A DNA stretch of 64,000 bases, from NCBI RefSeq assembly GCF_000716445.1, contig NZ_JNWK01000029.1, positions 20,356 to 84,355 on the forward strand, given 5' to 3'. Numbering within the stretch: the stretch's first letter is position 1; every line of letters starts with the position of its first letter. Below, in pieces: positions 4,044-15,029 of the stretch. Source of the DNA: Streptomyces wedmorensis (GTDB taxonomy: Bacteria; Actinomycetota; Actinomycetes; Streptomycetales; Streptomycetaceae). Under the pieces are notes generated by a model. The model worked only from the letters and a program-made list of their open reading frames with translations, had not been told where the DNA came from and did no database searches. The translations under genes and the position numbers were made by a program.

Positions 4044-6392
4044 TCATTCGAAGGCGACTGCGGCCTCCTTCAGGGCGGCGGCGATCGTCTCGGGTGCGTC
4101 GGGGCCGGGGGCTCCGGGCCGGTAGGTGACGGAGCGGAGGCGGCCGGTGAAGCGGAAGGAGCGGTGGCGTTCGAAGAGGGGCCAGGAGACGGGGGACTTG
4201 CGGTCGATGCCGACGCTGATGCCCTGGAAAGGGGCCATGCCGATGAGCTGGTGGACGGGGTCGGGTGCGGCGCGGTGTTCGCCGTCGACGGTGACGGTGA
4301 ACCGCCAGCGCAGCCCTTCCTCGGCGGTGGCGGTGAGGAGGATCGCGTGGGGGCCGGCGCCGAGGGGGCCGGCGTCGGTCTCGTGGAGGGTGCCGTACTC
4401 GTTGTAGGCGAAGGTGAGGCGGCCGTCCTCGACGTACAGGCCGTAGCCGCCGCCCTGGTCGCCGTGGGAGACGAGGACGCCGTCACCGGTCTCGTCGACG
4501 GCGACGGCGATCTCGAAGGAGCGCAGGGAGACGAGCCGGGAGGAGCGGTAGCGCTCCAGTTCCGGGGTGCCGGGCAGCAGGGTGAGGGGGCGGCCGAGGC
4601 GCTGCTCGGCGGGGTTGCGGCGGGCGAGGGCTCCGCTGTGGTCGGGCAGGGGGAAGACGCCGTTGCGCCACGCCGCGGTCTCCCAGGCCGTCGACAGCTC
4701 CTTGACGAGTCCGGGGTTCTCGGCGGCGAGGTCGTGGATCTCGGTGGGGTCGGTGCGGATGTCGTACAGGGCCCATTCGGTGTCGTCGTAGGGCGTGCCG
4801 GGGCGGTGGAGGGTAACGAGCTTGTGGCCGTCGCGGTAGTGGCTGCGGTTGCCGGTCATCTCGCAGTACTGCTCGGGGTGGGTGGAGTCGTGGGCGGGGT
4901 CGGCGAGGACGGGTGTGAAGTCGGTGCCGTCGAGCTCCTGGAGGGGGACGCCGCGGCGGGTCTCGGGGCGGGTGAGTCCGGCGAGTTCGAGGAGGGTGGG
5001 GGCAATGTCGGTGACGTACTGGTACTGGGGCCGCAGTCCGGTGGCGAGCCGGCCGTCGCGTACTCCGTCGGGCCAGGAGAGGACGAAGGGCACGCGGACG
5101 CCGCCCGCGTGGGTGTGGCCCTTGTAGAGGCGGAAGGGGGTGTTGGAGGCCATGCCCCAGCCGCGCGGGTAGTGGACGAGGCTGCGGGGGCCGCCGATGA
5201 GGTCGGGGTCGCGGTCGACGTCGGGGTTCCAGTCGCCGGGGAGGCGGGGGTGGTGGACGAAGCGGCTGAAGTAGGAGCGGGTGCCTTCGAGGCCGCCCTC
5301 GCCGGTGCCGCCGTTGTCGGAGGTGAAGACGACGATGGTGTTGTCGAGTTCGCCGAGGGCGGCGAGGGTGTCGGTGAGCCGGCCGAGGTTCTGGTCGATG
5401 TTGTCGACGAGGGCGGCGTACACCTCCATGTAGCGGGCGTAGAGGCGCTGTTGTTCCGGCGTCAGAGTGTCCCAGGCGGGGACGTCGAGGCCGGCCTCGC
5501 TGTTGCGCTCGGGCAGTTCGGTGCCGGGCGGGAAGAGTCCGGCGGCGAGCTGGGCGGCGAAGCGCCGCTCGCGCAGGGCGTCCCAGCCGTCGTCGTAGCG
5601 GCCCCGGTGGCGTGCGATGTCCTCGGCCTTGGCCTGGAGGGGGCCGTGGACGGCGTTGTGGGCGAGGTAGAGGAAGAAGGGCTTGTCCGGGTCGTGGGCG
5701 CGGAGCGACTTCACCATGGCGATCGCCTCGTCGGTGATGTCGTCGGTGTAGTAGTAGTCGTCGGGGAACTCGTCGATGTCGAGGGGGCTGTTGTCCCGGA
5801 CGAGCTGGTGCGGGTGGAAGAGGCTGGTGAGGCCTTCCAGGACGCCGTAGTACCGGTCGAAGCCCTTCTGGAGCGGCCAGTTGCCGCGGTGGTCGGCGGC
5901 GTTGGACGCGGAGTCGCGGACGAGGTGCCATTTGCCGACGGCGTACGTGGCGTATCCGGCGTCGTGCAGGAGTTCGGCGAGGGTGGGGATGTCGTCGGCG
6001 ACCTCCATGCCGTAACCGGGGAAGCCGGGGTCGGAGTTGGCGACCATGGCGTAGCCGACGCGGTGCGGGTTGAGGCCGGTGAGCAGGGCGGCGCGGGCCG
6101 GCGAGCAGAGCGGCATGGTGTGGTAGTTGGTGAGTCGGACGCCCGTGCCGGCCAGGCCGTCGAGGACCGGGGTGGGGATCTCGGAGCCGAAGGGGCCGAT
6201 GTCGCTGAATCCCATGTCGTCGACGAGGACGACGACGATGTTGGGGGCCTTGGCGGGCGGGGCGGTACGGGTGGGCCAGGCCGGTTCGGACTCGGCGAAG
6301 GTGCGGCCGACGCGGCCGGCGAAGCCCTCGTAGGGGTCGCGGCGGGTGGGCGTGGACCGGGTGGCGGGGTCGCGCGGGGTGCCGGTGGTCAT
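4044..6392 (-). CDS. Arylsulfatase (Cys-type, formylglycine-dependent)
   Basis: This 782-residue type I sulfatase hydrolyses sulfate esters to release sulfate. The N-terminal metal site is visible as IVVVLVDDMGFSDIG at about 52-66. The activation motif C-S-P-A-R is at 96-100; Cys96 should be oxidised to formylglycine by the enzyme encoded immediately upstream. Other landmarks are the GKWHL motif, a TSDNGG strand and a basic-residue patch at YKGHTHAGG. A C-terminal extension of about 200 residues, beta-rich and ligand-binding-like, gives the length seen in mycobacterial AtsA-like sulfatases. There is no signal peptide, so it probably works on imported esters. Its ATG overlaps the stop of the preceding gene in an ATGA, pointing to translational coupling. 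It closes a six-gene transport/hydrolysis operon. Confidence 0.93.
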   Translation of the reverse strand: MTTGTPRDPATRSTPTRRDPYEGFAGRVGRTFAESEPAWPTRTAPPAKAPNIVVVLVDDMGFSDIGPFGSEIPTPVLDGLAGTGVRLTNYHTMPLCSPARAALLTGLNPHRVGYAMVANSDPGFPGYGMEVADDIPTLAELLHDAGYATYAVGKWHLVRDSASNAADHRGNWPLQKGFDRYYGVLEGLTSLFHPHQLVRDNSPLDIDEFPDDYYYTDDITDEAIAMVKSLRAHDPDKPFFLYLAHNAVHGPLQAKAEDIARHRGRYDDGWDALRERRFAAQLAAGLFPPGTELPERNSEAGLDVPAWDTLTPEQQRLYARYMEVYAALVDNIDQNLGRLTDTLAALGELDNTIVVFTSDNGGTGEGGLEGTRSYFSRFVHHPRLPGDWNPDVDRDPDLIGGPRSLVHYPRGWGMASNTPFRLYKGHTHAGGVRVPFVLSWPDGVRDGRLATGLRPQYQYVTDIAPTLLELAGLTRPETRRGVPLQELDGTDFTPVLADPAHDSTHPEQYCEMTGNRSHYRDGHKLVTLHRPGTPYDDTEWALYDIRTDPTEIHDLAAENPGLVKELSTAWETAAWRNGVFPLPDHSGALARRNPAEQRLGRPLTLLPGTPELERYRSSRLVSLRSFEIAVAVDETGDGVLVSHGDQGGGYGLYVEDGRLTFAYNEYGTLHETDAGPLGAGPHAILLTATAEEGLRWRFTVTVDGEHRAAPDPVHQLIGMAPFQGISVGIDRKSPVSWPLFERHRSFRFTGRLRSVTYRPGAPGPDAPETIAAALKEAAVAFE

Positions 6393-7318
6393 GCGGGGGC
6401 GGGTCCTTCCGGGAGGAGCGTGCGGGCGGTGCGGAAGCCGCCGTGGCCGGTGGAGGAGTCGGGGGTGTTGTGGGAGCGGGCGGCGACCCGGTAGCGGTTG
6501 CAGTAGGAGGAGTGGCAGAGGTACGAGCCGCCGCGGATGACGCGCTCGCCGGGGCCGAAGGCGTCGGCGCACCACTCCCAGACGTTGCCCGAGGTGTTGT
6601 ACAGGCCGTGGCCGTTGGGGGCGTACGCCGTGACGGGGACGGTGCCGGTGCGGCCGCCGGGCCGCTCGGAGCGGTGGGGGAAGTCGCCGGTCCAGATGTT
6701 GCACATCTCGCGGCCGCCGGGGGTGAGGTCGTCGCCCCACGGGTAGCGGGCGCCGTCGAGCCCGCCGCGGGCCGCGTACTCCCATTCGGCCTCGGTGGGC
6801 AGCCGGACGCCGGCCCAGGCGCAGTAGGCCCGGGCGTCGTCGTGGGAGATGTGCACGACGGGGTGGTCGGCGCGTCCTTCGAGGTCGGAGCCCGGGCCTT
6901 CGGGCGTGTGCCAGGAGGCGCCCGTGACGCCGAGCCACCACGGGGCCTGCGGGACCCGGCCGAGGACGTGGCGTTCGGCGGCGGGGTGCAGGAGGAGGTG
7001 GAACACGAAGGAGGAGCCGAAGCGTTCCGCGTCGGTGCGGTGCCCGGTGGCCGTCACGAACCGCGCGAACCGTGCGTTGGTGACGGCGGTGGCGTCGATC
7101 GCGAAGGGCGCGATGGTCACTTCCCGTACGGGCCCCTCGCGGTCGGCGGGGTAGCCCTCTCCGAAGGCGTCGCCCATCCGGAAGGTGCCGCCCGGCAGCT
7201 CCACCATGGGGTGGGGCGGCGGGGCTGTCCGTACGGTCGGCAGCGGGAGCAGCTCCAGGTTGGCCGAGTGGCCGGCGGAGCCCGTACAGGCGCGGCCGGG
7301 GGTGCAGCAGGCGTTCAC
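6389..7318 (-). CDS. Formylglycine-generating enzyme (sulfatase-activating)
   Basis: This 309-residue copper-dependent FGE oxidises the Cys of the sulfatase C-x-P-x-R motif to C-alpha-formylglycine. The FGE-sulfatase fold is clear: VELPGGTFRMGD near 39-50, the RLPTEAEWEYAARGG block at 172-186, and GNVWEWC at 244-250. The paired active-site cysteines lie in GGSYLCHSSYCNRYR (Cys268 and Cys273). These cysteines separate true FGE from the related non-catalytic FGE-like proteins of other pathways. The GTG start overlaps the stop of the ABC ATPase gene by four bases, and its own stop overlaps the sulfatase start. Enzyme and substrate are therefore made together. The Cys-rich N-terminus before residue 35 is not part of the fold. 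Confidence 0.95.
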   Translation of the reverse strand: MNACCTPGRACTGSAGHSANLELLPLPTVRTAPPPHPMVELPGGTFRMGDAFGEGYPADREGPVREVTIAPFAIDATAVTNARFARFVTATGHRTDAERFGSSFVFHLLLHPAAERHVLGRVPQAPWWLGVTGASWHTPEGPGSDLEGRADHPVVHISHDDARAYCAWAGVRLPTEAEWEYAARGGLDGARYPWGDDLTPGGREMCNIWTGDFPHRSERPGGRTGTVPVTAYAPNGHGLYNTSGNVWEWCADAFGPGERVIRGGSYLCHSSYCNRYRVAARSHNTPDSSTGHGGFRTARTLLPEGPAPA

Positions 7319-9162
7319 GCGGACACCGCCTCGGCCGGGGCGGGGACGCGGACGGCCGCGAGCGGTACGGGTTCGGGCGCGGCGGCGAGCAGGGCGCGGG
7401 TGTAGGGGTCGCGGGGGTGTTCGCACAGGTCGTCGGCGTCGCCGGTCTCCACGACGCGGCCCTCGTGCATGACGGCGATGCGGTGGCTGACCTGGCGGAC
7501 GACGGCCAGGTCGTGGGCGATGAAGACGAGAGCGAGGCCCAGGTCGCGCTGGAGGTCGGTGAGCAGGCCGACGATCTGCGCCTGGACGGAGACGTCGAGC
7601 GCGGAGACGGGTTCGTCGCAGATGAGGACGTCCGGTCCGGGGGCGAGGGCGCGTGCGATGCCGACGCGCTGGCGCTGGCCGCCGGAGAAGGAGCGCGGGT
7701 GGCGGTCGGCCGCGGCCGGGTCGAGGCCGACGAGGCGCAGTAGCTCCGCGACCCGGCCGGCGCGGTCCGCCGGTGTGCCGATGCCGAAGGCGCGCAGTGG
7801 TTCGGCGACGATCTCCCCCACGGTCATGCGGGGGTTGAGGGAGGCGTACGGGTCCTGGAAGACCATCTGGACGCGGCGGCGTACGGCGTGCAGCTCCTTG
7901 CGGCCGGGGCGGGTGACGTCCTCGCCGTCGAGGAGGATCCGGCCGCCGTCGGAAGGGTGGGCGTGGGCGAGGACCCGGGCGAGGGTCGATTTGCCGGAGC
8001 CGGACTCGCCGACGATGCCGAGGGTCTCTCCCGCGGCGAGGGTGAGGGAGACGCCGTCCAGGGCGGTGAAGGAGCGGCGGCCGCGGCTCCGGTACGTCTT
8101 GCGGAGCCCTTCGGCGGTCAGGACGACGGCGCCGGGGGCGGGCCGGTCGATCTTCGCGGGCGGCGGGGGCGGGGGCAGTGGTTCGCCGCGTTCGGCGGCG
8201 GGGAGGCAGGCGGCGCGGACGGTGTCGGTGACGGCGGTGAGCGGCGGTGCGGTGGTGTGGCAGCGCTCCTCGGCGAGGGCGCAGCGGGCGGCGAAGGCGC
8301 ATCCGGTGAGCGGGAGGGCGAGGTCGGGTGGGGTGCCGGGGATGCCGGTGAGGCGGGTGCCGGAGGGGGCGGAGAGCCGGGGCACGGCGGCGAGGAGACC
8401 GGCGGTGTAGGGGTGGCGCGGGCGGGTGAGGACGTCGGCTGTGGGGCCGTCCTCGACGACGGTGCCGCCGTACATGACGAGGACGCGGTCGCAGGCGCGG
8501 GCGACGACGCCCATGTTGTGGGTGATGAGGACGAGCGCGGTGCCGGTGGTGCGGGTGAGTTCTCCGAGGAGGGTGAGGATCTGGTCCTGGACGGTGGCGT
8601 CGAGTGCGGTGGTGGGTTCGTCGGCGAGGAGGACGTCGGGTTCGCCGGCGAGGGCCATGGCGATGAGGACGCGCTGGCGCTGGCCTCCGGAGAACCGGTG
8701 GGGGTGGTCGCCGAGGCGGCGTTCGGGGTCGGGGATGCCGACGAGCCGGAGCAGTTCGACGGCGCGGGCGCGGCGGGTCCGCCCGTCCCGCTCGCCGTGC
8801 GCCCGCAGCACCTCGTCGAGGTGGCGGCCGATGGTGAGGACGGGGTTGAGGGCGGTCATCGGGTCCTGGAAGACCATGCCGATGCGGGCGCCGCGTACGG
8901 CCCTCAGGCGCTCCTCCCCCGCCGTGGTCAGTTCCTCGCCGTTCAGGCGGACCGAACCGCCGGTGATCCGTCCGGTGCCGGGGAGCATCCGCAGCAGGGC
9001 GAGCGCGGTGGTGGACTTCCCGGAGCCGGACTCGCCGACGACGGCGAGGGTCTCGCCGCGGCGCAGGGTGAAGGACACGTCCCGGACGGCGTGCAGGGAG
9101 CCGCCGCCGGGGGTGGTGAACTCCACGTCCAGGCCCTGGACTTCGAGGAGGGGCGTGGTCAT
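7315..9162 (-). CDS. Fused DppD-DppF-type ABC transporter ATPase
   Basis: This 615-residue protein carries two complete ABC ATPase domains of the peptide/nickel importer type. Each has a Walker A GESGSGKST (about residues 40 and 383), a SGGQRQR signature and a Walker B (VLLADEPTT in the first, VLICDEPVS in the second). After domain 1 comes the Cys-containing oligopeptide-transporter C-terminal region (GCAFAARCALAEERC), which in homologues can bind an iron-sulfur cluster. It would power uptake through the two permeases encoded just upstream. The ATG overlaps the permease stop in ATGA. With FGE and sulfatase downstream, the likely cargo is a sulfate ester or another organosulfur compound rather than a peptide; that is inference from context. 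Confidence 0.93.
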   Translation of the reverse strand: MTTPLLEVQGLDVEFTTPGGGSLHAVRDVSFTLRRGETLAVVGESGSGKSTTALALLRMLPGTGRITGGSVRLNGEELTTAGEERLRAVRGARIGMVFQDPMTALNPVLTIGRHLDEVLRAHGERDGRTRRARAVELLRLVGIPDPERRLGDHPHRFSGGQRQRVLIAMALAGEPDVLLADEPTTALDATVQDQILTLLGELTRTTGTALVLITHNMGVVARACDRVLVMYGGTVVEDGPTADVLTRPRHPYTAGLLAAVPRLSAPSGTRLTGIPGTPPDLALPLTGCAFAARCALAEERCHTTAPPLTAVTDTVRAACLPAAERGEPLPPPPPPAKIDRPAPGAVVLTAEGLRKTYRSRGRRSFTALDGVSLTLAAGETLGIVGESGSGKSTLARVLAHAHPSDGGRILLDGEDVTRPGRKELHAVRRRVQMVFQDPYASLNPRMTVGEIVAEPLRAFGIGTPADRAGRVAELLRLVGLDPAAADRHPRSFSGGQRQRVGIARALAPGPDVLICDEPVSALDVSVQAQIVGLLTDLQRDLGLALVFIAHDLAVVRQVSHRIAVMHEGRVVETGDADDLCEHPRDPYTRALLAAAPEPVPLAAVRVPAPAEAVSA

Positions 9163-10016
9163 CGGCGTATCTCCCGGTTCAGCGCCTCGGCGGTCAGGGA
9201 GAGGCCGAGGACGAGCGTGGTCACGGTCACGAGCGGTCCGGCGGCGAAGTGCGGGGCCTGGGCGAGGTAGGGCATCGACTGGCTGAGGACGGCTCCCAGG
9301 GTGGGTTCGGGGGGCCGGACGCCGACGCCGAGGAAGCTCATGGCGCCTTCCAGGAAGACGGCGACGGTCAGGGAGACGGCGATCTGGACGACGAGCGGGT
9401 CGGCGGCGTTGGGAAGGATGTGGCGGGTGAGGATCCGGCCTCCGGAGGTGCCGCCGACACGGGCGGCGGTCACGTACTCCCGGCCGCTCTGCACGAGGAT
9501 GCCGGTGCGCAGGAGCCGCCCGAAGGCGGGGACCTCGGCGAGCGCGATGACGAGGATCACGGGCAGCCGTCCGGGGCCGAGGACGGCGGTGACGGCGAGC
9601 GCCAGGATCAGTCCGGGGAAGGCGAGGATCAGGTCGAAGGCGCGCTGGACGACGGTGTCGGCGACCGGGTGGGCGGCCGCGGCCAGCGCGAGGAGGCAGC
9701 CGACGGCGGCTCCGAGCGGGACGGCGACGGCGATGATGCCGAGGTCGGCGCGGATGCCGTGGAGGAGGCGGGCGAGGAGGTCGCGGCCGAGGTCGTCGGT
9801 GCCGAGCGGATGGCCGGGTGTGCCGGGTCCGGCGAGCGCGAGGGCGCTCTGGTCGGTGGGCCCGTGGCCGGCGAGGAGCGGGGCGAGGAGTCCGGCGAGG
9901 ACGACGAGCCCGACGAGGGCGAGTCCGGTGCGGCCGCGGGCGGTGGCGAGGGCGGCCCGGTAGGGGTGGCGGGGTTTGCGGGCGGGGGCCGGCTTGGCGG
10001 CGGCGAGGGTGGTCAT
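9159..10016 (-). CDS. ABC transporter permease, DppC-like
   Basis: This 285-residue inner-membrane permease has a cytoplasmic Lys/Arg/Pro-rich N-terminus and about six hydrophobic segments. The EAA-type coupling loop is seen around the R-E-Y-V-T-A-A-R-V-G-G sequence, and the HPLGTDDLGRDLLAR element is typical of DppC proteins. It forms the translocation pore with the DppB-like partner. ATG 10016 was chosen because GGTGGGAG sits about 8 bases before it. An in-frame GTG at 10025 overlaps the upstream stop but has no room for a ribosome-binding site. It is the third gene of the organosulfur operon. Confidence 0.9.
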   Translation of the reverse strand: MTTLAAAKPAPARKPRHPYRAALATARGRTGLALVGLVVLAGLLAPLLAGHGPTDQSALALAGPGTPGHPLGTDDLGRDLLARLLHGIRADLGIIAVAVPLGAAVGCLLALAAAAHPVADTVVQRAFDLILAFPGLILALAVTAVLGPGRLPVILVIALAEVPAFGRLLRTGILVQSGREYVTAARVGGTSGGRILTRHILPNAADPLVVQIAVSLTVAVFLEGAMSFLGVGVRPPEPTLGAVLSQSMPYLAQAPHFAAGPLVTVTTLVLGLSLTAEALNREIRR

Positions 10017-10021
10017 GGCGG

Positions 10022-10966
10022 TCACTCCCACCTGATTCGGGGGTCGAGCCGGGCGTGGACGAGGTCGGTGAGGAGCTGGACGAGGACGAAGACGGTGACG
10101 AGGAGGAGCAGGAGGTCCTGGACGACGGGGTAGTCGCGGCGGACCAGGGCCTGTTCGGCGAGCTGGCCGAGGCCGGGCCAGGCGAAGATCGCCTCGACGA
10201 GGACGGCGCCGCCGAGGAGGTGGCCGGTCTGCATGCCCAGGAGGGTCACGACGGGCGGGAGGGCGTTCGGCAGGGCGTGACGCCAGAGGAGGCGGCGGGG
10301 TGCGATGCCGGCGGCGGTCGCCGTGCGGATGTGGTCCTCGGCGAGGGTCCGTTCGATGCCGTCCTTCAGGTAGCGGCCGAGGACGGCGGCACTGGGCAGC
10401 GCGAGGCAGAGGGCGGGCAGCAGGAGGTACTGGACGCCGAGGTCGGGTGCGGTGAGGAGGGGGACGCGTCCGCCCGGGGGCAGGACGCCGAGGAGGACGG
10501 CGAAGACGAGGACGAGGAGGACGCCGGTGACGAACGGCGGCACGGCGAGGGCTCCGGTGGTGAGCACCCGTACGGTGCCGAGGGTCCAGCGGTTGCGGGA
10601 GGTCGCGCCGAGGATGCCGAAGGCGGCGCCGAGGGCGACGACGAACAGCAGGGCCCCGAGGGTGAGTTCGACGGTGGCGCCGAGTCCGTCGGCGATCAGG
10701 TCGGCGGTCTGGCCGCCGATCGCGTAGGACGGTCCGAGGTCTCCGGTGAGGAGGCCGCCGATCCATCGCAGGTACTGGGCGGGCAGCGGGTCGTCGAGGC
10801 CGAGCCGTTCGCGGATGGCGGCCTCGGTGGCGGGGCTCGCGTCGGGGCCGGCGAGGACGGCGGCGGGATCGCCCGGGACGAGCCGCAGGAGGGCGAAGGC
10901 GAGGAAGGAGGCGGCGAGGAGGACGAGGAGGGCGGAGGGGAGTCTCCGCAGCAGGTAGCGGCGCAC
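10022..10966 (-). CDS. ABC transporter permease, DppB-like
   Basis: This 314-residue permease opens with the DppB pattern MRRYLLRRLPSALLVLLAAS, followed by a large extracytoplasmic loop holding the G-D-P motif (LVPGDPAAV). About six membrane segments follow, with the EAA loop around DHIRTATAAGIAPRRLLWRH. It pairs with the DppC-like protein. The GTG start lies one base after the stop of the substrate-binding lipoprotein gene, so the two must share a transcript. Substrate specificity lies in the binding protein and cannot be read here. Confidence 0.9.
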   Translation of the reverse strand: MRRYLLRRLPSALLVLLAASFLAFALLRLVPGDPAAVLAGPDASPATEAAIRERLGLDDPLPAQYLRWIGGLLTGDLGPSYAIGGQTADLIADGLGATVELTLGALLFVVALGAAFGILGATSRNRWTLGTVRVLTTGALAVPPFVTGVLLVLVFAVLLGVLPPGGRVPLLTAPDLGVQYLLLPALCLALPSAAVLGRYLKDGIERTLAEDHIRTATAAGIAPRRLLWRHALPNALPPVVTLLGMQTGHLLGGAVLVEAIFAWPGLGQLAEQALVRRDYPVVQDLLLLLVTVFVLVQLLTDLVHARLDPRIRWE

Positions 10967-10967
10967 G

Positions 10968-12560
10968 TCAGTCCACCAGGTGGGCGTCGTCGAGGTTGAG
11001 GTAGGAGAACTTGTTGAGCGTGACTCCGCGCAGCTTGGCGGCGGAGACCTGGACGGAGCCGCGGATGACGAGGTCGATGATGAACGCCTCGTCGAGCAGG
11101 GTGTCGGTGATCCGCTGCCGCAGGGCGTTGGCGGCGGCCCCCGTGGCGGGCCCGGTCCAGGCGTCCCGGACGACCTTCGTGTAGGCGGCGGAGCGGAACC
11201 TGGAGGTGTTCTTGGCCTCGTTGAAGGGGTAGGCGCTGACGGCGAGGGTGGAGGGCTGGACCTGGGCGAATCCGTGGCCCATGGTCCACAGGCCGGGCAT
11301 GGTCTGGGCGATGAGGTGCTTCTGCGCGGTGGCCGGGTCGGTGGGCTGGAGGGTGACCTGGACGCCGATCTGCTTCAGGTCGTACTGGACGGCTTCGGCG
11401 ACCGCGGTCTCGCCGGGCAGGTTGACGTGGAGCAGCGGCAGGTCGAGCCGGGTGTGCCCGGCGGACCTGAGGAGTTCGCGGGCCTTGCCGGGGTCGTACG
11501 TGTAGTGGGTGCGGCCCGCTTCGGTGAAGGCCGGCGAGGACTTGGGCCACGGGGTGGCGGAGGCGAGTCCGTAGCCGCCGAGGACCTGCTTGAGGATCCG
11601 CTCGCGGTCGATGCCCCAGGCGAGGGCCTGGCGGACGGTCTTGTCGTGCAGCGGGGCGACGGTGGTGTTGACGCCGAGGTAGTAGGCCCCGCCGCCGGTG
11701 GAGTACTCGCTGACGGCGAGCCCGGGGGTGGACTTGACGACCGCGAGGTTCTTTCCGGGGACGCTGAAGGACAGCTGGGACTGGCCGCTGCGGAGGGAGG
11801 AGAGCAGTGCGTCGGCCTGCGGCACGACGCGGATCTCGACGCCGTCGAGGTAGGGACGGCCGGGCTGCCAGTACTTCTCGTTGCGGGTGAGGCTGAGCCC
11901 CGCTCCGGGGCTCCACTTGGTGAGCTCGAAGGGTCCGGTGCCGTTCAGCCTCTTGCCGCTGACGGCGTCCTCGACGCTGTGCCGATCGGCGATGACCATG
12001 AATTCGAAGAGGTCGAAGAGGTTGTTCACCGGGTGGGCGAGCTTGAGGACCAGCTCGTGGTCACCGCGCTTCTCGAAGCCGGTCACGGCCGCCGCCGTGG
12101 CTCTCAACTGAGCTGCCCTGAGCGGGTTCTGAAGGTTCTTCACCGCGAAGATCACGTCGTCGGCGGTGAACGGCCGACCGTCGTGGTAGATGACGCCCGT
12201 ACGCAGCTTCAGCGTGACGGACCGGCCGCCCTCCACGTACTCCCAGGAGGTGGCGAGCTCCGGCTGCGGCCGCAACCGGTCGTCGTAGCGGGTGAGGGTG
12301 TTGTAGATCAGCCGCTGCTGGAGCGACTGACCGCTCTGGGCGAACAGCAGGCTGGGCGTGAAGTCCGTGTTGACGGCGACGGTGAGGGTGCCGCCCCGCC
12401 GGGGCCCCGCTCCCGCCTTCCCGGCGGGCGCCTCGGCCTCGGAGACCGCCGAGCGGCAGCCCGCGAGGCCGAGCCCGAGCAGCAGGGTGCCACCGCCCGC
12501 GGCGCGCAGGGTGGTGCGCCGGGTGGGGGCGGAGGGCGTGGAGGAGTACAGCTCGGTCAT
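10968..12560 (-). CDS. Substrate-binding lipoprotein, solute-binding family 5
   Basis: This 530-residue extracytoplasmic binding protein has an N-terminus with twin arginines (TRRTTLRAAGG), a hydrophobic core and the lipobox LAGC (Cys35). It is likely Tat-exported and lipid-anchored. The mature part has the family-5 layout: GGTLTVAV, a domain with ELATSWEYV and D-G-R-P-F-T-A-D-D-V, then the L-R-x-G-x-L/S hinge region. It captures the ligand for the two permeases and the fused ATPase downstream. It is the first structural gene of the operon. Roughly 500 bases of leader DNA separate it from a small cysteine-containing leader ORF at 13059-13130, which suggests sulfur-status attenuation. Confidence 0.92.
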   Translation of the reverse strand: MTELYSSTPSAPTRRTTLRAAGGGTLLLGLGLAGCRSAVSEAEAPAGKAGAGPRRGGTLTVAVNTDFTPSLLFAQSGQSLQQRLIYNTLTRYDDRLRPQPELATSWEYVEGGRSVTLKLRTGVIYHDGRPFTADDVIFAVKNLQNPLRAAQLRATAAAVTGFEKRGDHELVLKLAHPVNNLFDLFEFMVIADRHSVEDAVSGKRLNGTGPFELTKWSPGAGLSLTRNEKYWQPGRPYLDGVEIRVVPQADALLSSLRSGQSQLSFSVPGKNLAVVKSTPGLAVSEYSTGGGAYYLGVNTTVAPLHDKTVRQALAWGIDRERILKQVLGGYGLASATPWPKSSPAFTEAGRTHYTYDPGKARELLRSAGHTRLDLPLLHVNLPGETAVAEAVQYDLKQIGVQVTLQPTDPATAQKHLIAQTMPGLWTMGHGFAQVQPSTLAVSAYPFNEAKNTSRFRSAAYTKVVRDAWTGPATGAAANALRQRITDTLLDEAFIIDLVIRGSVQVSAAKLRGVTLNKFSYLNLDDAHLVD

Positions 12561-13058
12561 CGATGCCTGCCTGTGAAGAGGGGGAGGCCGCAGGGTGCAC
12601 GGGTTCGTTCCGCTGCGGAAGGAAGGAGGAGGAAGGTGTGGCCACGGGCTGCGCGGAGCGAGGCCCGGACATGGGAAGGACGGAAGGGCGAGCCGCGTCG
12701 CCGGCGATACGGAGGTGCCCGGGTGCGGGGTTGCGGACGCCGGTCGGGTCGACTTGGCCGCCGCTCGACCGTGACGTCGTACCGGCTATGACGTCGCTTC
12801 GGCCGTCACGTCGTATCGGCCGTGCCTACGTATCGGCCATGCCTTCACATCGGCGATGACGCCACTCGGCCATGACGCCGTCTCGGCCGTGGCGTCACTC
12901 GACTACGGAGCCGCGAGTCCACGGCGGCCGGAAGAGCCACCGGAGCCGGCGACGCGACGAGGAACGGCGGACCGCCGCGTTCGGCGCGGCCGGGGTGGTG
13001 TCGGCGGGTCCGATGCGGCGACCCGCGCCGGAGTCGGACGCCGGGATGGACGCCAGGG
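12561..13058. other. Leader region between leader peptide and binding-protein gene
   Basis: This stretch of 498 bases has no convincing gene on either strand. Read on the minus strand it would be the untranslated leader of the ABC-sulfatase operon. Its only ordered structure is the eight-unit 17-bp repeat array at 12770-12903. A G/A-rich stretch (12575-12640, plus strand) precedes the binding-protein start. No clear intrinsic terminator with a T-run was seen. Confidence 0.6.
12770..12903. repeat. Eight-unit 17-bp degenerate tandem array
   Basis: Six units of 17 bp and two of 16 bp (units 6 and 8) follow each other with no spacer, starting at 12770, 12787, 12804, 12821, 12838, 12855, 12871 and 12888. 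The consensus is YRTGACGTCGTATCGGC. All units end in CGGC except the last, which ends in CGAC. On the minus strand the recurring core is GCCGATACG. The array lies wholly in the presumed transcribed leader of the binding-protein gene. Confidence 0.85.
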
Positions 13059-13130
13059 TCAGACGCGGACGGCACAGACCGCGCTGGCCTGTCGACAGAG
13101 GTCGACGTGCCTGCGGGAGATGAGGCGCAT
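13059..13130 (-). CDS. HVDL-type cysteine leader peptide
   Basis: ATG 13130 opens a 23-codon ORF encoding MRLISRRHVDLCRQASAVC plus four residues; a GTG four codons upstream is an alternative start. The R-R-H-V-D-L-C-R-x-x-S-A-x-C pattern is the one I recognise from the short leader peptides found ahead of sulfur-assimilation and sulfonate/sulfate-ester genes in actinobacteria. There, cysteine codons are thought to sense Cys-tRNA supply. Two Cys codons lie at positions 12 and 19. It precedes, on the same strand, the ABC transporter/FGE/sulfatase operon, so control of organosulfur uptake by cysteine availability is a natural reading. It is too short to identify by anything but this motif and context. 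Confidence 0.8.
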   Translation of the reverse strand: MRLISRRHVDLCRQASAVCAVRV

Positions 13131-13171
13131 GTCCGGATTCACGGGAGCAATATGACAGCGGCTTCGCGGGA

Positions 13172-13191
13172 CGGTCAACCGGGGTTGACCG
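13172..13191. promoter_or_regulatory. 9-bp-arm palindrome upstream of leader peptide
   Basis: CGGTCAACC and GGTTGACCG form a perfect inverted repeat around a 2-bp GG spacer, 16 bases past the ROK gene stop and about 40 bases upstream of the leader-peptide ATG on the minus strand. No T-tract follows on either strand, so an operator (possibly for the ROK protein) is likelier than a terminator. Confidence 0.5.
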
Positions 13192-13206
13192 CATTCTGAG
13201 ACGACA

Positions 13207-14436
13207 TCAGTCACGACCCCCTGTACCGGCCCACTCGTCGACCGTCTCAAAAGGCCTCCTGAACAGGGGATTCAGCAGAACCGTGCCCGCCGCGACGGGA
13301 AGTGTGGCCGGTCCGGCATGTGGACTGACGATGCGTTCGGGATCGTCGCAGACGTGGGAGAGGTCGATCGCGGCGCCGCGGATCTCCTCCAGGTACTCCG
13401 GTTCGAGCACGCTGGACTGCTCGGTCACCACGACCAGATCGGGGTTGAGGACGTCCAGGAGCAGGGCGACGGCGCGGCCGACCGCGCGGGCCCGTTCGCG
13501 CAGCAGCCGGTCGGCGCGCCGGTCCCCGGCTGCCGCCGCGTCCACGACCAGGGAGGTGTCGGGCTCGGGCACGATGCCGCGGCGCACGGCGGTGAGCCCG
13601 ACGGCGGTGTTCGAGGCGGTCGCCTCCAGACAGCCCGAACGCCCGCACGGGCAGGGGGCCGTGGAGTCCGGGACGGGCAGGTGGGCCACGTCCCCGGCCG
13701 CCGCCCCCGGCCCCTGGTGGACGACTCCGGCGAGCCCGACGGCCGCGTCGACGACGTTCCCGACGAAGAGGTGCACGAGGCTGCGGCGAGCGGCGGGCCG
13801 CCCGAAGAGGATCTCCGACTGGGCGATGGAGCGGGCGTGGTTGTCGACGCGGACCGTGCGTCCGCCCAGGCCACGGGCGAGTTCGGCGGCGAGCGGCCGG
13901 CGGCGCCAGCCGAACGCGTCATGGCGCACCACCAGGCCTTCGGCGGGGTCGACCCATCCGCCGACCGCGGCACCGACCCCGAACAAGGGCCGCCCCCGGG
14001 TGTGTTCGTCGAGGAATCCGCGCAGCTCACGGGCGACGGCCGCGGGCAGGACCTCCGGCGCGACGCCGTCGTGCGGGTAGGTGCGGCGGGCCACGACCCG
14101 GCCCCGCAGGTCGACGAGGGCGAACGTCGAGGCGGGGACACCGAGGTGGACGCCGCCCGCCACGGGACCGCCGGAGGCGCCGACGTGCAGGTCGACGGGG
14201 ATCCGGGGCCGGCCCACTCCCCCGCCGCCGGTGTGTTCGGGCAGTTCGCGCAGGAGACCCAGCCTGGCGAGGTCGGTGGCCTGCCGGGAGACGGCGGCGG
14301 GGCTGAGGCCGGAGAGCCGTGCGACGGTGCTGCGGGCGACCGGTCCGTGGTCGAGGACGGTCCGCAGCACGCTGGCGGCGTTGGCCTCGCGCCGTCCGTC
14401 ACCGGCCATCCGGGGGCCGTGCGGGGTGGTCGTCAT
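13207..14436 (-). CDS. ROK family transcriptional regulator
   Basis: This 409-residue protein combines an N-terminal winged helix-turn-helix (about residues 15-70, with VARSTVARLSGLSPAAVSRQ) and a ROK sugar-kinase-like domain. The ROK zinc motif C-P-C-G-R-S-G-C-L-E is present. The first ATPase-like phosphate loop is poorly preserved, as usual in repressor-type ROK proteins. It should bind DNA and release it on binding a ligand. It lies upstream of and in the same direction as the ABC-sulfatase operon, and divergent from the dioxygenase gene, so it is the obvious local regulator. A sugar-sulfate ligand is possible but not shown. Start 14436 places the MTTTPHGPRM end just before the HTH; a longer frame to 14574 encodes no plausible extension. 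Confidence 0.85.
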   Translation of the reverse strand: MTTTPHGPRMAGDGRREANAASVLRTVLDHGPVARSTVARLSGLSPAAVSRQATDLARLGLLRELPEHTGGGGVGRPRIPVDLHVGASGGPVAGGVHLGVPASTFALVDLRGRVVARRTYPHDGVAPEVLPAAVARELRGFLDEHTRGRPLFGVGAAVGGWVDPAEGLVVRHDAFGWRRRPLAAELARGLGGRTVRVDNHARSIAQSEILFGRPAARRSLVHLFVGNVVDAAVGLAGVVHQGPGAAAGDVAHLPVPDSTAPCPCGRSGCLEATASNTAVGLTAVRRGIVPEPDTSLVVDAAAAGDRRADRLLRERARAVGRAVALLLDVLNPDLVVVTEQSSVLEPEYLEEIRGAAIDLSHVCDDPERIVSPHAGPATLPVAAGTVLLNPLFRRPFETVDEWAGTGGRD

Positions 14437-15029
14437 GGGGGCCTCTCTGGTCGCTTTCCTGCAGGACGCTGTGATCACTGTTGCGGCGGTGTGAAATCCC
14501 GGGGCCGTGTGCGGCGCGGCCGCCGTCCGTGCTTCCGAGACCGCGGCGCCCGCTCTGGGGAATGGGATCACCACAGGTCAGACGGGGTTCGGTGCGGTAC
14601 GGGGAACGGGTGCGGGGTCCCGGGGCAGGCGCCGATTCAACCACCGGGGAGGACGGTTCGGGGAGCGGACGGTCGCTTGACGTCCGGCGGCGGCCACTGC
14701 GAGGCTCCGGGACATGTTCGCGACCTCCTCCTGTACCGCCCTCCACGGCGCCTGACCCTCGCGACCTCCTCGCGTGGCCGGTTCGCCGCCGCGCTCCCGC
14801 GCTCCCCACCCGACGGGCACACCCCTCCGCCACGCGGTACGCACCCGTCGCACTTCTCGGACCGCACCTGTCGCCCGTACACCCCCCCGTAGCGGTCGCC
14901 CTGCCCGTGGACCGCTCGCGCTTCTCGTGGTGCTCCGGCAGCCGTGCGACGGCCGCGACTTCCCGTCAGCTCATTACTTCCGCTCCGGAATCAATTCCGG
15001 ACGTGCCCACCTCTCCGAAAGGACCCGCC
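14437..15029. other. Divergent intergenic region, ROK regulator / dioxygenase
   Basis: These 593 bases separate two divergent starts. No supportable gene was found: the frames open here have atypical Arg/Pro/Ser-rich products. The stretch 14960-15000 is noticeably less GC-rich and contains the perfect palindrome listed separately, directly in front of the dioxygenase ribosome-binding site. A TTGACG at about 14667 could be a -35 element for the plus strand, but no good -10 partner was found. Confidence 0.5.
14984..15001. promoter_or_regulatory. Perfect palindrome before dioxygenase gene
   Basis: TCCGGAAT-CA-ATTCCGGA is a perfect 8-bp-arm inverted repeat ending 28 bases before the dioxygenase ATG and about 18 bases before its AAAGGA site. 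Its position suits a repressor operator at or just after the transcription start. Confidence 0.6.

Follow-up and report, generated by a model that had tools for sequence, protein, structure and literature searches.

The window analysed here is a stretch of 64,000 nucleotides from Streptomyces wedmorensis (contig NZ_JNWK01000029.1, positions 20,356 to 84,355). On its minus strand it carries a short leader open reading frame, which is confirmed by sequence comparison as a real member of an already modelled family of leader peptides, and which precedes an ABC transporter/FGE/sulfatase operon. Control of the operon by cysteine-responsive attenuation is highly probable, judging from the family of the leader, from the sulfur genes that its relatives precede in the same genome and from a second cysteine-containing leader found in one clade. 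The first-pass annotation of the window had already suggested this type of control.

Translation of the window from positions 13130 to 13059 of the minus strand (ATG to TGA) gives a 23 amino acid open reading frame, MRLISRRHVDLCRQASAVCAVRV. The 19 residues of this peptide quoted in the first-pass annotation are correct, but the true end is four residues further on. The frame scores 35.2 bits (E-value = 6.3e-9) against the NCBIfam model NF042934.1 ("putative leader peptide", cis_reg_atten), which has a cut-off of 27. A longer frame with a GTG start, at positions 13059–13142 of the same strand (27 codons plus a stop codon, (M)NPDMRLISRRHVDLCRQASAVCAVRV), is likewise above the cut-off, with 34.5 bits. 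The Cys residue of model position 19 is present in the C-terminal part of the leader. Two models of mycobacterial cysteine leaders, NF042933 and NF042936, give 17.8 and 17.6 bits with the window ORF; because both cut-offs are 45, it is not a member of these groups. An Rfam search of positions 12400–13400 yielded a sole match, to SNORD39 (E-value = 3.8; 15.3 bits, where the gathering score is 35), which is nothing real, and showed no riboswitch. That the open reading frame is real is borne out by the profile score, by family members in the same genome and by the presence of a leader at 44 of 57 orthologous loci. It had been presented as an unknown element, but its family is one that NCBI already models.

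The S. wedmorensis genome shows eight NF042934 matches above the cut-off, including the window ORF, and weaker ones in addition. One leader (L001) is followed by a ThiS-fold protein and then by cysteine synthase. Leaders above the cut-off are also found before cysteine dioxygenase (L002), a nitrite/sulfite reductase-type protein (L004), a sulfurtransferase (L007) and a flavin reductase (L008), and L005 and L006 precede an alkanesulfonate monooxygenase-like enzyme and another luciferase-fold enzyme. The weaker matches lie before a GST-like protein (L009), a dicarboxylate-type symporter (L010) and a 2OG oxygenase (L011); a further match below the cut-off, L012 on contig C1, has 17.5 bits and TGT at the Cys position. 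Together with the NF042934 match, the family members that precede cysteine and sulfur genes uphold the earlier reading of the peptide as an actinobacterial leader pattern found before sulfur genes. The targets of L008, L010 and L011 are not plainly sulfur genes, and this counts against the cysteine reading. At an E-value of 1e-4 or less the family is present in all 41 Streptomycetaceae genomes, in 97 of the 148 genomes of the class sample and in 3 of the 60 genomes of the phylum sample, and is absent from the 14 control genomes. A lax threshold gives matches in 10 of these 14 controls, none of them above the 27-bit cut-off.

Pfam and NCBIfam searches confirm that the leader lies on the same strand as, and ahead of, the ABC/FGE/sulfatase operon, as had been proposed. 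The first structural gene encodes a solute-binding protein (SBP_bac_5, PF00496; positions 10968–12560, minus strand, as for all genes that follow). It is followed by two ABC permeases (PF00528), at positions 10022–10966 and, with an approximate start and an additional NCBIfam match, at 9159–9923. Next are a duplicated ABC ATPase of the oligopeptide/nickel type (7315–9162; Pfam/NCBIfam), an FGE-type sulfatase-modifying enzyme (6389–7318; PF03781) and a sulfatase with a CSPAR string in its translation (4044–6389; PF00884), the last two with approximate starts. The presence of the sulfatase suggests that the transporter carries sulfate esters. Just upstream of the leader is a gene for a ROK-family regulator (13207–14574, minus strand, approximate start; PF00480), and beyond it there is a divergent gene for a TauD-type dioxygenase.

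A scan of named genomes with the binding protein gave 63 loci, of which 58 (L028–L085) were treated as orthologues by identity and context. One of these, L082, has no upstream DNA, so that 57 loci are usable for a leader count. Of these, 44 have the leader ahead of the orthologous binding-protein gene, and the window brings the number of copies to 45. Forty leader loci have at least 9.5 kb of downstream DNA and could be searched for the make-up of the operon by tblastn (1e-15; sulfatase and FGE counted when downstream, on the same strand and with at least 40% identity). The ATPase is present in all 40, the ROK and TauD genes in 37 each, the sulfatase in 35 and the FGE in 22, i.e. the FGE is absent in 18. 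It follows that the leader is tied to the transporter first. The earlier proposal of a leader for a sulfate-ester/sulfatase operon holds more strictly for the transporter (40 of 40) than for the sulfatase (35 of 40), and the five leader loci without a sulfatase match downstream (L040, L053, L063, L069 and L072) weigh against the explanation preferred below. At two loci a second NF042934-type leader was seen before the divergent TauD gene, at −1894 (L055, 28.3 bits) and −1977 (L072) relative to the binding-protein match.

The leader probably starts at the GTG at position 13142, judging from its conservation. This GTG is kept in 45 of 45 copies, in 43 of them in the same register and in two (L076 and L077) one codon earlier. 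The ATG at position 13130, which had been taken as the start, is found in 28 copies and is absent from the other 17, which show AAG, CTG, CCG, CAA, GTC or GCA in its place. Six nucleotides before the GTG there is a −10 box, CATATT (13149–13154, minus strand). This sequence has the same 6-nt distance in 34 of the 45 copies, CATTCT occurs 6–7 nt before the GTG in nine, and L076 and L077 have neither. A −35 box, TTGACC (13173–13178, minus strand), is conserved, and the sequence is located 25–45 nt ahead of the start in all 45 copies. A start with such a −10 spacing is found in 41 of 82 leaders of the NF042934 family as against 2.5% of control draws. In S. lividans the distance from the −10 box to the transcription start averages 6.3 nt, and 17% of transcripts are reported as leaderless, of which 32.2% begin with GTG (PMC8079986). 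Since the position of the GTG 6 nt after the −10 box matches the spacing in S. lividans, the mRNA is likely to be leaderless, starting at the GTG at 13142. Promoter, GTG and leader are nearly invariant in close copies, and the adjoining spacer is unalignable. A palindrome that overlaps the −35 box, GGTCAACC-GG-GGTTGACC (13173–13190), was considered as an operator and rejected in favour of a chance extension of the −35 box, since orthologues do not preserve its left half. It is the sole exact match in the S. wedmorensis genome, with one further site at two mismatches.

The leader has two Cys codons, both TGT. The first (13095–13097, minus strand; codon 16, model position 12) is not invariant: it is TGT in 42 copies, TGC in one (L049) and has been replaced by Arg in two (L058 and L077). 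The second (13074–13076, minus strand; codon 23, model position 19) is Cys, encoded by TGT, in 45 of 45 copies, and it is this codon that is the putative sensor. The equal weight given to both codons in the first-pass annotation is thus not appropriate.

The use of TGT at this position extends to the whole family. Among the matches listed, 148 leaders were counted, a subset of a family that has more matches; model position 19 is TGT in 145, TGC in none and a stop codon in three. The 145 leaders represent 131 distinct cores and 23 families of organisms. In a second set of 66 leaders, 61 come from 22 families other than that of the window. The remaining Cys codons of the same leaders show the opposite preference, 57 TGC vs. 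8 TGT in the first set and 81 TGC vs. 20 TGT in the second, and at model position 12 the first set has 32 TGC vs. 3 TGT. TGT is also rare in the genes of the window, where 118 Cys codons are TGC and 10 are TGT. The third base is T in 100% at codon 19 and in 0–21% at every other codon position of 1–23. Fisher's exact p is 8e-32, a value to be read with the relatedness of the leaders and the presence of several per genome, by which the counts are not independent. The profile search itself is blind to synonymous codons. From these patterns the UGU at model position 19 is taken to be under selection as a codon; tRNA-Cys reads UGU by wobble. Among the titles and abstract openings listed from the open-licence literature, no paper deals with a UGU rule or places a cysteine leader ahead of a sulfatase operon.

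The three stop codons at the sensor position are TAG in L128 and L153 and TGA in L155, and all three leaders precede CysO-type genes. The four best matches below the cut-off in the S. wedmorensis genome, which are outside the count of 148, have TGT in L010–L012 and TAG in L009. The stop codons in the three counted leaders and in L009 weigh against the preferred explanation, and two Cys codons are few for a classical attenuator.

The sequence RHVDLxRxxSA, which precedes the sensor, raises the question of whether the nascent peptide itself causes the arrest, in response to cysteine or some other signal, instead of mere starvation at one codon. This motif is conserved far more strongly than a mere series of Cys codons would require, the three leaders with stop codons terminate exactly at the sensor position, and in the tna operon a peptide of this kind is described as coupled to Rho (PMC8429421). 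Within model positions 16–23, however, column 19 alone is fixed, and the fixation includes the third base, which points to decoding; the leaders of another clade, described below, are also without such a motif. Peptide arrest is accordingly judged improbable, but it is the strongest of the alternatives considered. That the open reading frame has no function and is a chance or vestigial frame within a conserved promoter is scarcely credible. Its very short length and its description as unannotated would agree with this, but its NF042934 score is above the cut-off, the frame and the second Cys are kept in 45 copies despite an unalignable spacer, and the clade that lacks the old leader has another that also contains cysteine.

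The explanation preferred here, which on the whole has a good chance of being correct, combines a leaderless leader, a stall at the second Cys codon and Rho termination in the spacer. Transcription would begin directly at the GTG of position 13142 or beside it, giving a leaderless mRNA, and the ribosome would translate the leader of 27 codons. With ample Cys-tRNA, the ribosome would finish and leave, and transcription would stop in the untranslated spacer, most likely by means of Rho. With Cys-tRNA in short supply, the ribosome would wait at the second Cys codon (UGU, 13076–13074), 12 nt before the stop codon, and would shield the start of the spacer or alter its folding. RNA polymerase could then reach the binding-protein, ABC, FGE and sulfatase genes, and low cysteine would thus turn up uptake and cleavage of sulfate esters. 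The sequences show the frame with its family and conservation, the conserved promoter, the invariant UGU, the C-rich spacers of the family and the different leader of one clade; the steps of translation, stalling and Rho action, as well as the substrate and the way in which the response runs, are inferred.

The untranslated spacer between the leader and the binding-protein gene (12561–13058, minus strand; 498 nt) is a candidate Rho loading region. Spacer lengths are 192–498 nt in 35 copies of the operon, that of the window being the longest, and 19–396 nt (median 139) in 68 leaders of the family outside the class of this operon. Gene starts for the family and for the composition analysis were taken from a simple gene caller, and those of L053 and L078 are approximate. 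The C-skew, (C−G)/(C+G), has a mean of 0.266 in the 35 of 45 operon copies used. It has a mean of 0.265 in a second set of 68 family intervals, four of them from this operon (the window plus three more copies). A further four intervals, with spacers of <60 nt, were left out of this set, and all 68 values are positive. The mean in 235 control upstream regions is 0.043 (sd 0.162). Because the spacers are C-rich, Rho is the best of the read-outs considered, although it is put forward tentatively and at somewhat less than an even chance. Against it, the spacer of the window has the lowest C-skew among the 35 copies (0.153, a value reached by 24% of controls), and a single ribosome at codon 23 would have to shield several hundred nucleotides from Rho. 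The C-skew could also serve another purpose, e.g. to keep the spacer unstructured.

Short repeats and a palindrome were observed in the spacer. The window has about seven 17-nt repeats (72% matches) at positions 12772–12896, and the spacers of L031 and L036 seem, by eye, to have other short repeats. The palindrome, TTCCGCAGCGGAA, is at positions 12608–12620, about 60 nt before the binding-protein start. It was rejected as a general operator, being in the same place in only 8 of 58 loci (L029, L030, L032–L035, L078 and L080), and the genome has one site as compared with two for a reversed control pattern.

Classical transcription attenuation, by an intrinsic terminator and competing hairpins, has been described or predicted for actinobacterial ilvB and trp leaders (PMC13236596, PMC1262725). 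For the present locus it is very unlikely. In the window no terminator-like site is present at positions 12500–13400, the spacers of 13 close copies can be aligned at their 3′ ends only, and the leader is without covariation: compensatory changes were seen in none of 18 predicted pairs (18 of 45 copies). The lack of compensatory base changes in the leader RNA is also a point against the preferred explanation.

The cysteine genes of M. smegmatis are cited as being regulated by translation attenuation (PMC13236596). By this mechanism the leader RNA would mask the Shine-Dalgarno sequence of the binding-protein gene, here CAGGCAGG (12566–12573, minus strand), and a stalled ribosome would free it. 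Across the family, leader tails do pair slightly better with the start region of their own gene, with 0.014 of 2000 resamplings giving a result as good (one leader per class; 72 of 82 leaders used, nine having an uncertain gene start and one no gene found). In the class of this operon (four leaders), however, own pairing is no better than pairing with the partners of others (fr_SD 0.81, fr_lead 0.55). The predicted accessibility of the Shine-Dalgarno sequence was 0.323 in the free RNA and 0.328 when the RNA was folded with a stalled ribosome, as a footprint at codon 23, for 33 of 34 copies tried (L053 is without a Shine-Dalgarno-like motif). With a spacer as long as 498 nt in addition, translational attenuation is doubtful here, a little more so than peptide arrest.

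The NF042934-type leader is absent before the binding-protein gene in 13 of the 57 loci. Twelve of these belong to one clade, with genomes named Kitasatospora or Streptomyces; the other, L081 (Yinghuangia), shows no leader of either type. In 10 of these 12 clade loci (L062, L065–L067, L070, L071, L073, L074, L083 and L085) the TauD gene has the same direction and comes first, and it is preceded by an open reading frame with a Shine-Dalgarno sequence, e.g. MITRTVHRVAPARRRCCCRGTLAR or MRTAVVCCPSCPAPVFPCCGGCCPCRCAS. In L061 a similar Shine-Dalgarno-led frame lies directly before the binding protein, and in L064 a contig end cuts the region. All 11 clade loci that hold the region thus have an unrelated, cysteine-containing leader, with two to nine Cys codons each, 30 being TGT and 21 TGC. 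An NCBIfam scan of eight of these 11 peptides gave no match. A degenerate pattern of this second leader, searched in 42 family genomes with two mismatches allowed, gave nine matches in seven genomes, none leader-like by the matched letters.

In a tree of the binding proteins (midpoint root; L078 and L082 left out) a single branch (100/99) separates the 11 loci from all others. Closest to them is an Embleya and Yinghuangia group, in which two of the three members have the old leader (fork 95/73), and then comes Peterkaempfera, with the old leader. The L080 protein has a branch of 1.4, as against 0.014 and 0.048 in two neighbours, and is possibly a frameshifted or divergent copy. The tree fits a replacement of the older leader by the unrelated one in this clade, a direction that would depend on the midpoint root and on the long L080 branch.

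A wider proposal can be made, for which the chances appear evenly balanced: the sensor of actinomycete cysteine leaders would be a single UGU, fixed in preference to UGC since its decoding would be the first to fail at low Cys-tRNA, and the Kitasatospora-type clade would have gained its unrelated cysteine-rich leader after loss of the old one, such control being important enough to the sulfatase operon. The UGU and second-leader patterns are seen directly in the genomes; the explanation by decoding, the sequence in which leaders were lost and gained, and the probable Rho read-out are conjecture.

Comparison with known systems shows both similarities and differences. The window leader shares with the NF042934 family its sequence and its position before sulfur genes. 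It differs in its target, the transporter/FGE/sulfatase operon, and in its spacer length. The mycobacterial cysteine leaders (Shell 2015) are similarly described as short open reading frames with Cys codons near the end, before cysteine or sulfur genes, and as leaderless, which the window leader probably is; they have a run of adjacent Cys codons where the window leader has two separate ones. Masking of the Shine-Dalgarno sequence, reported for the mycobacterial leaders, is unsupported in the window operon. Mycobacterial cysteine leaders were reportedly also the subject of work by Canestrari in 2020.

With the Rho-dependent E. coli tna leader (TnaC) there is the likeness that a stalled ribosome would keep Rho off the downstream RNA; tna is induced by Trp with a stall at the stop codon, whereas cysteine starvation at a sense codon would apply here (PMC8429421). 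For cys leaders of Mycobacterium, Propionibacterium and Bifidobacterium, Seliverstov (2005) likewise gives no terminator and suggests Rho, a prediction rated there as rather weak, with motifs that are not conserved (PMC1262725); unlike those motifs, the C-skew is positive throughout the NF042934-family intervals. The leader uORFC-8-2, before cysS in Rhodobacterales, also has Cys codons in its frame, but UGC is described as dominant and a terminator stem is present, unlike in the window leader (PMC8632094). A table of eight S. lividans leader peptides names none as a cysteine leader; a leader upstream of metNIQ, reported there as methionine-dependent, has the C-terminal sequence ARCMCRRMCAF with its three Cys (PMC8079986) and may be a cysteine leader.

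The type of switch is a known one, and the parts of specialist interest beyond it are the UGU rule and the second type of leader. In Streptomyces, scavenging of sulfate esters would be linked to the cysteine supply by way of a very short leader open reading frame. The invariant UGU bears on the choice between sensing by decoding and models of RNA structure or peptide arrest, in a family that is present in about two thirds of the genomes of the class sample. The occurrence of two unrelated leaders on one operon would represent a natural experiment in the evolution of cysteine control.
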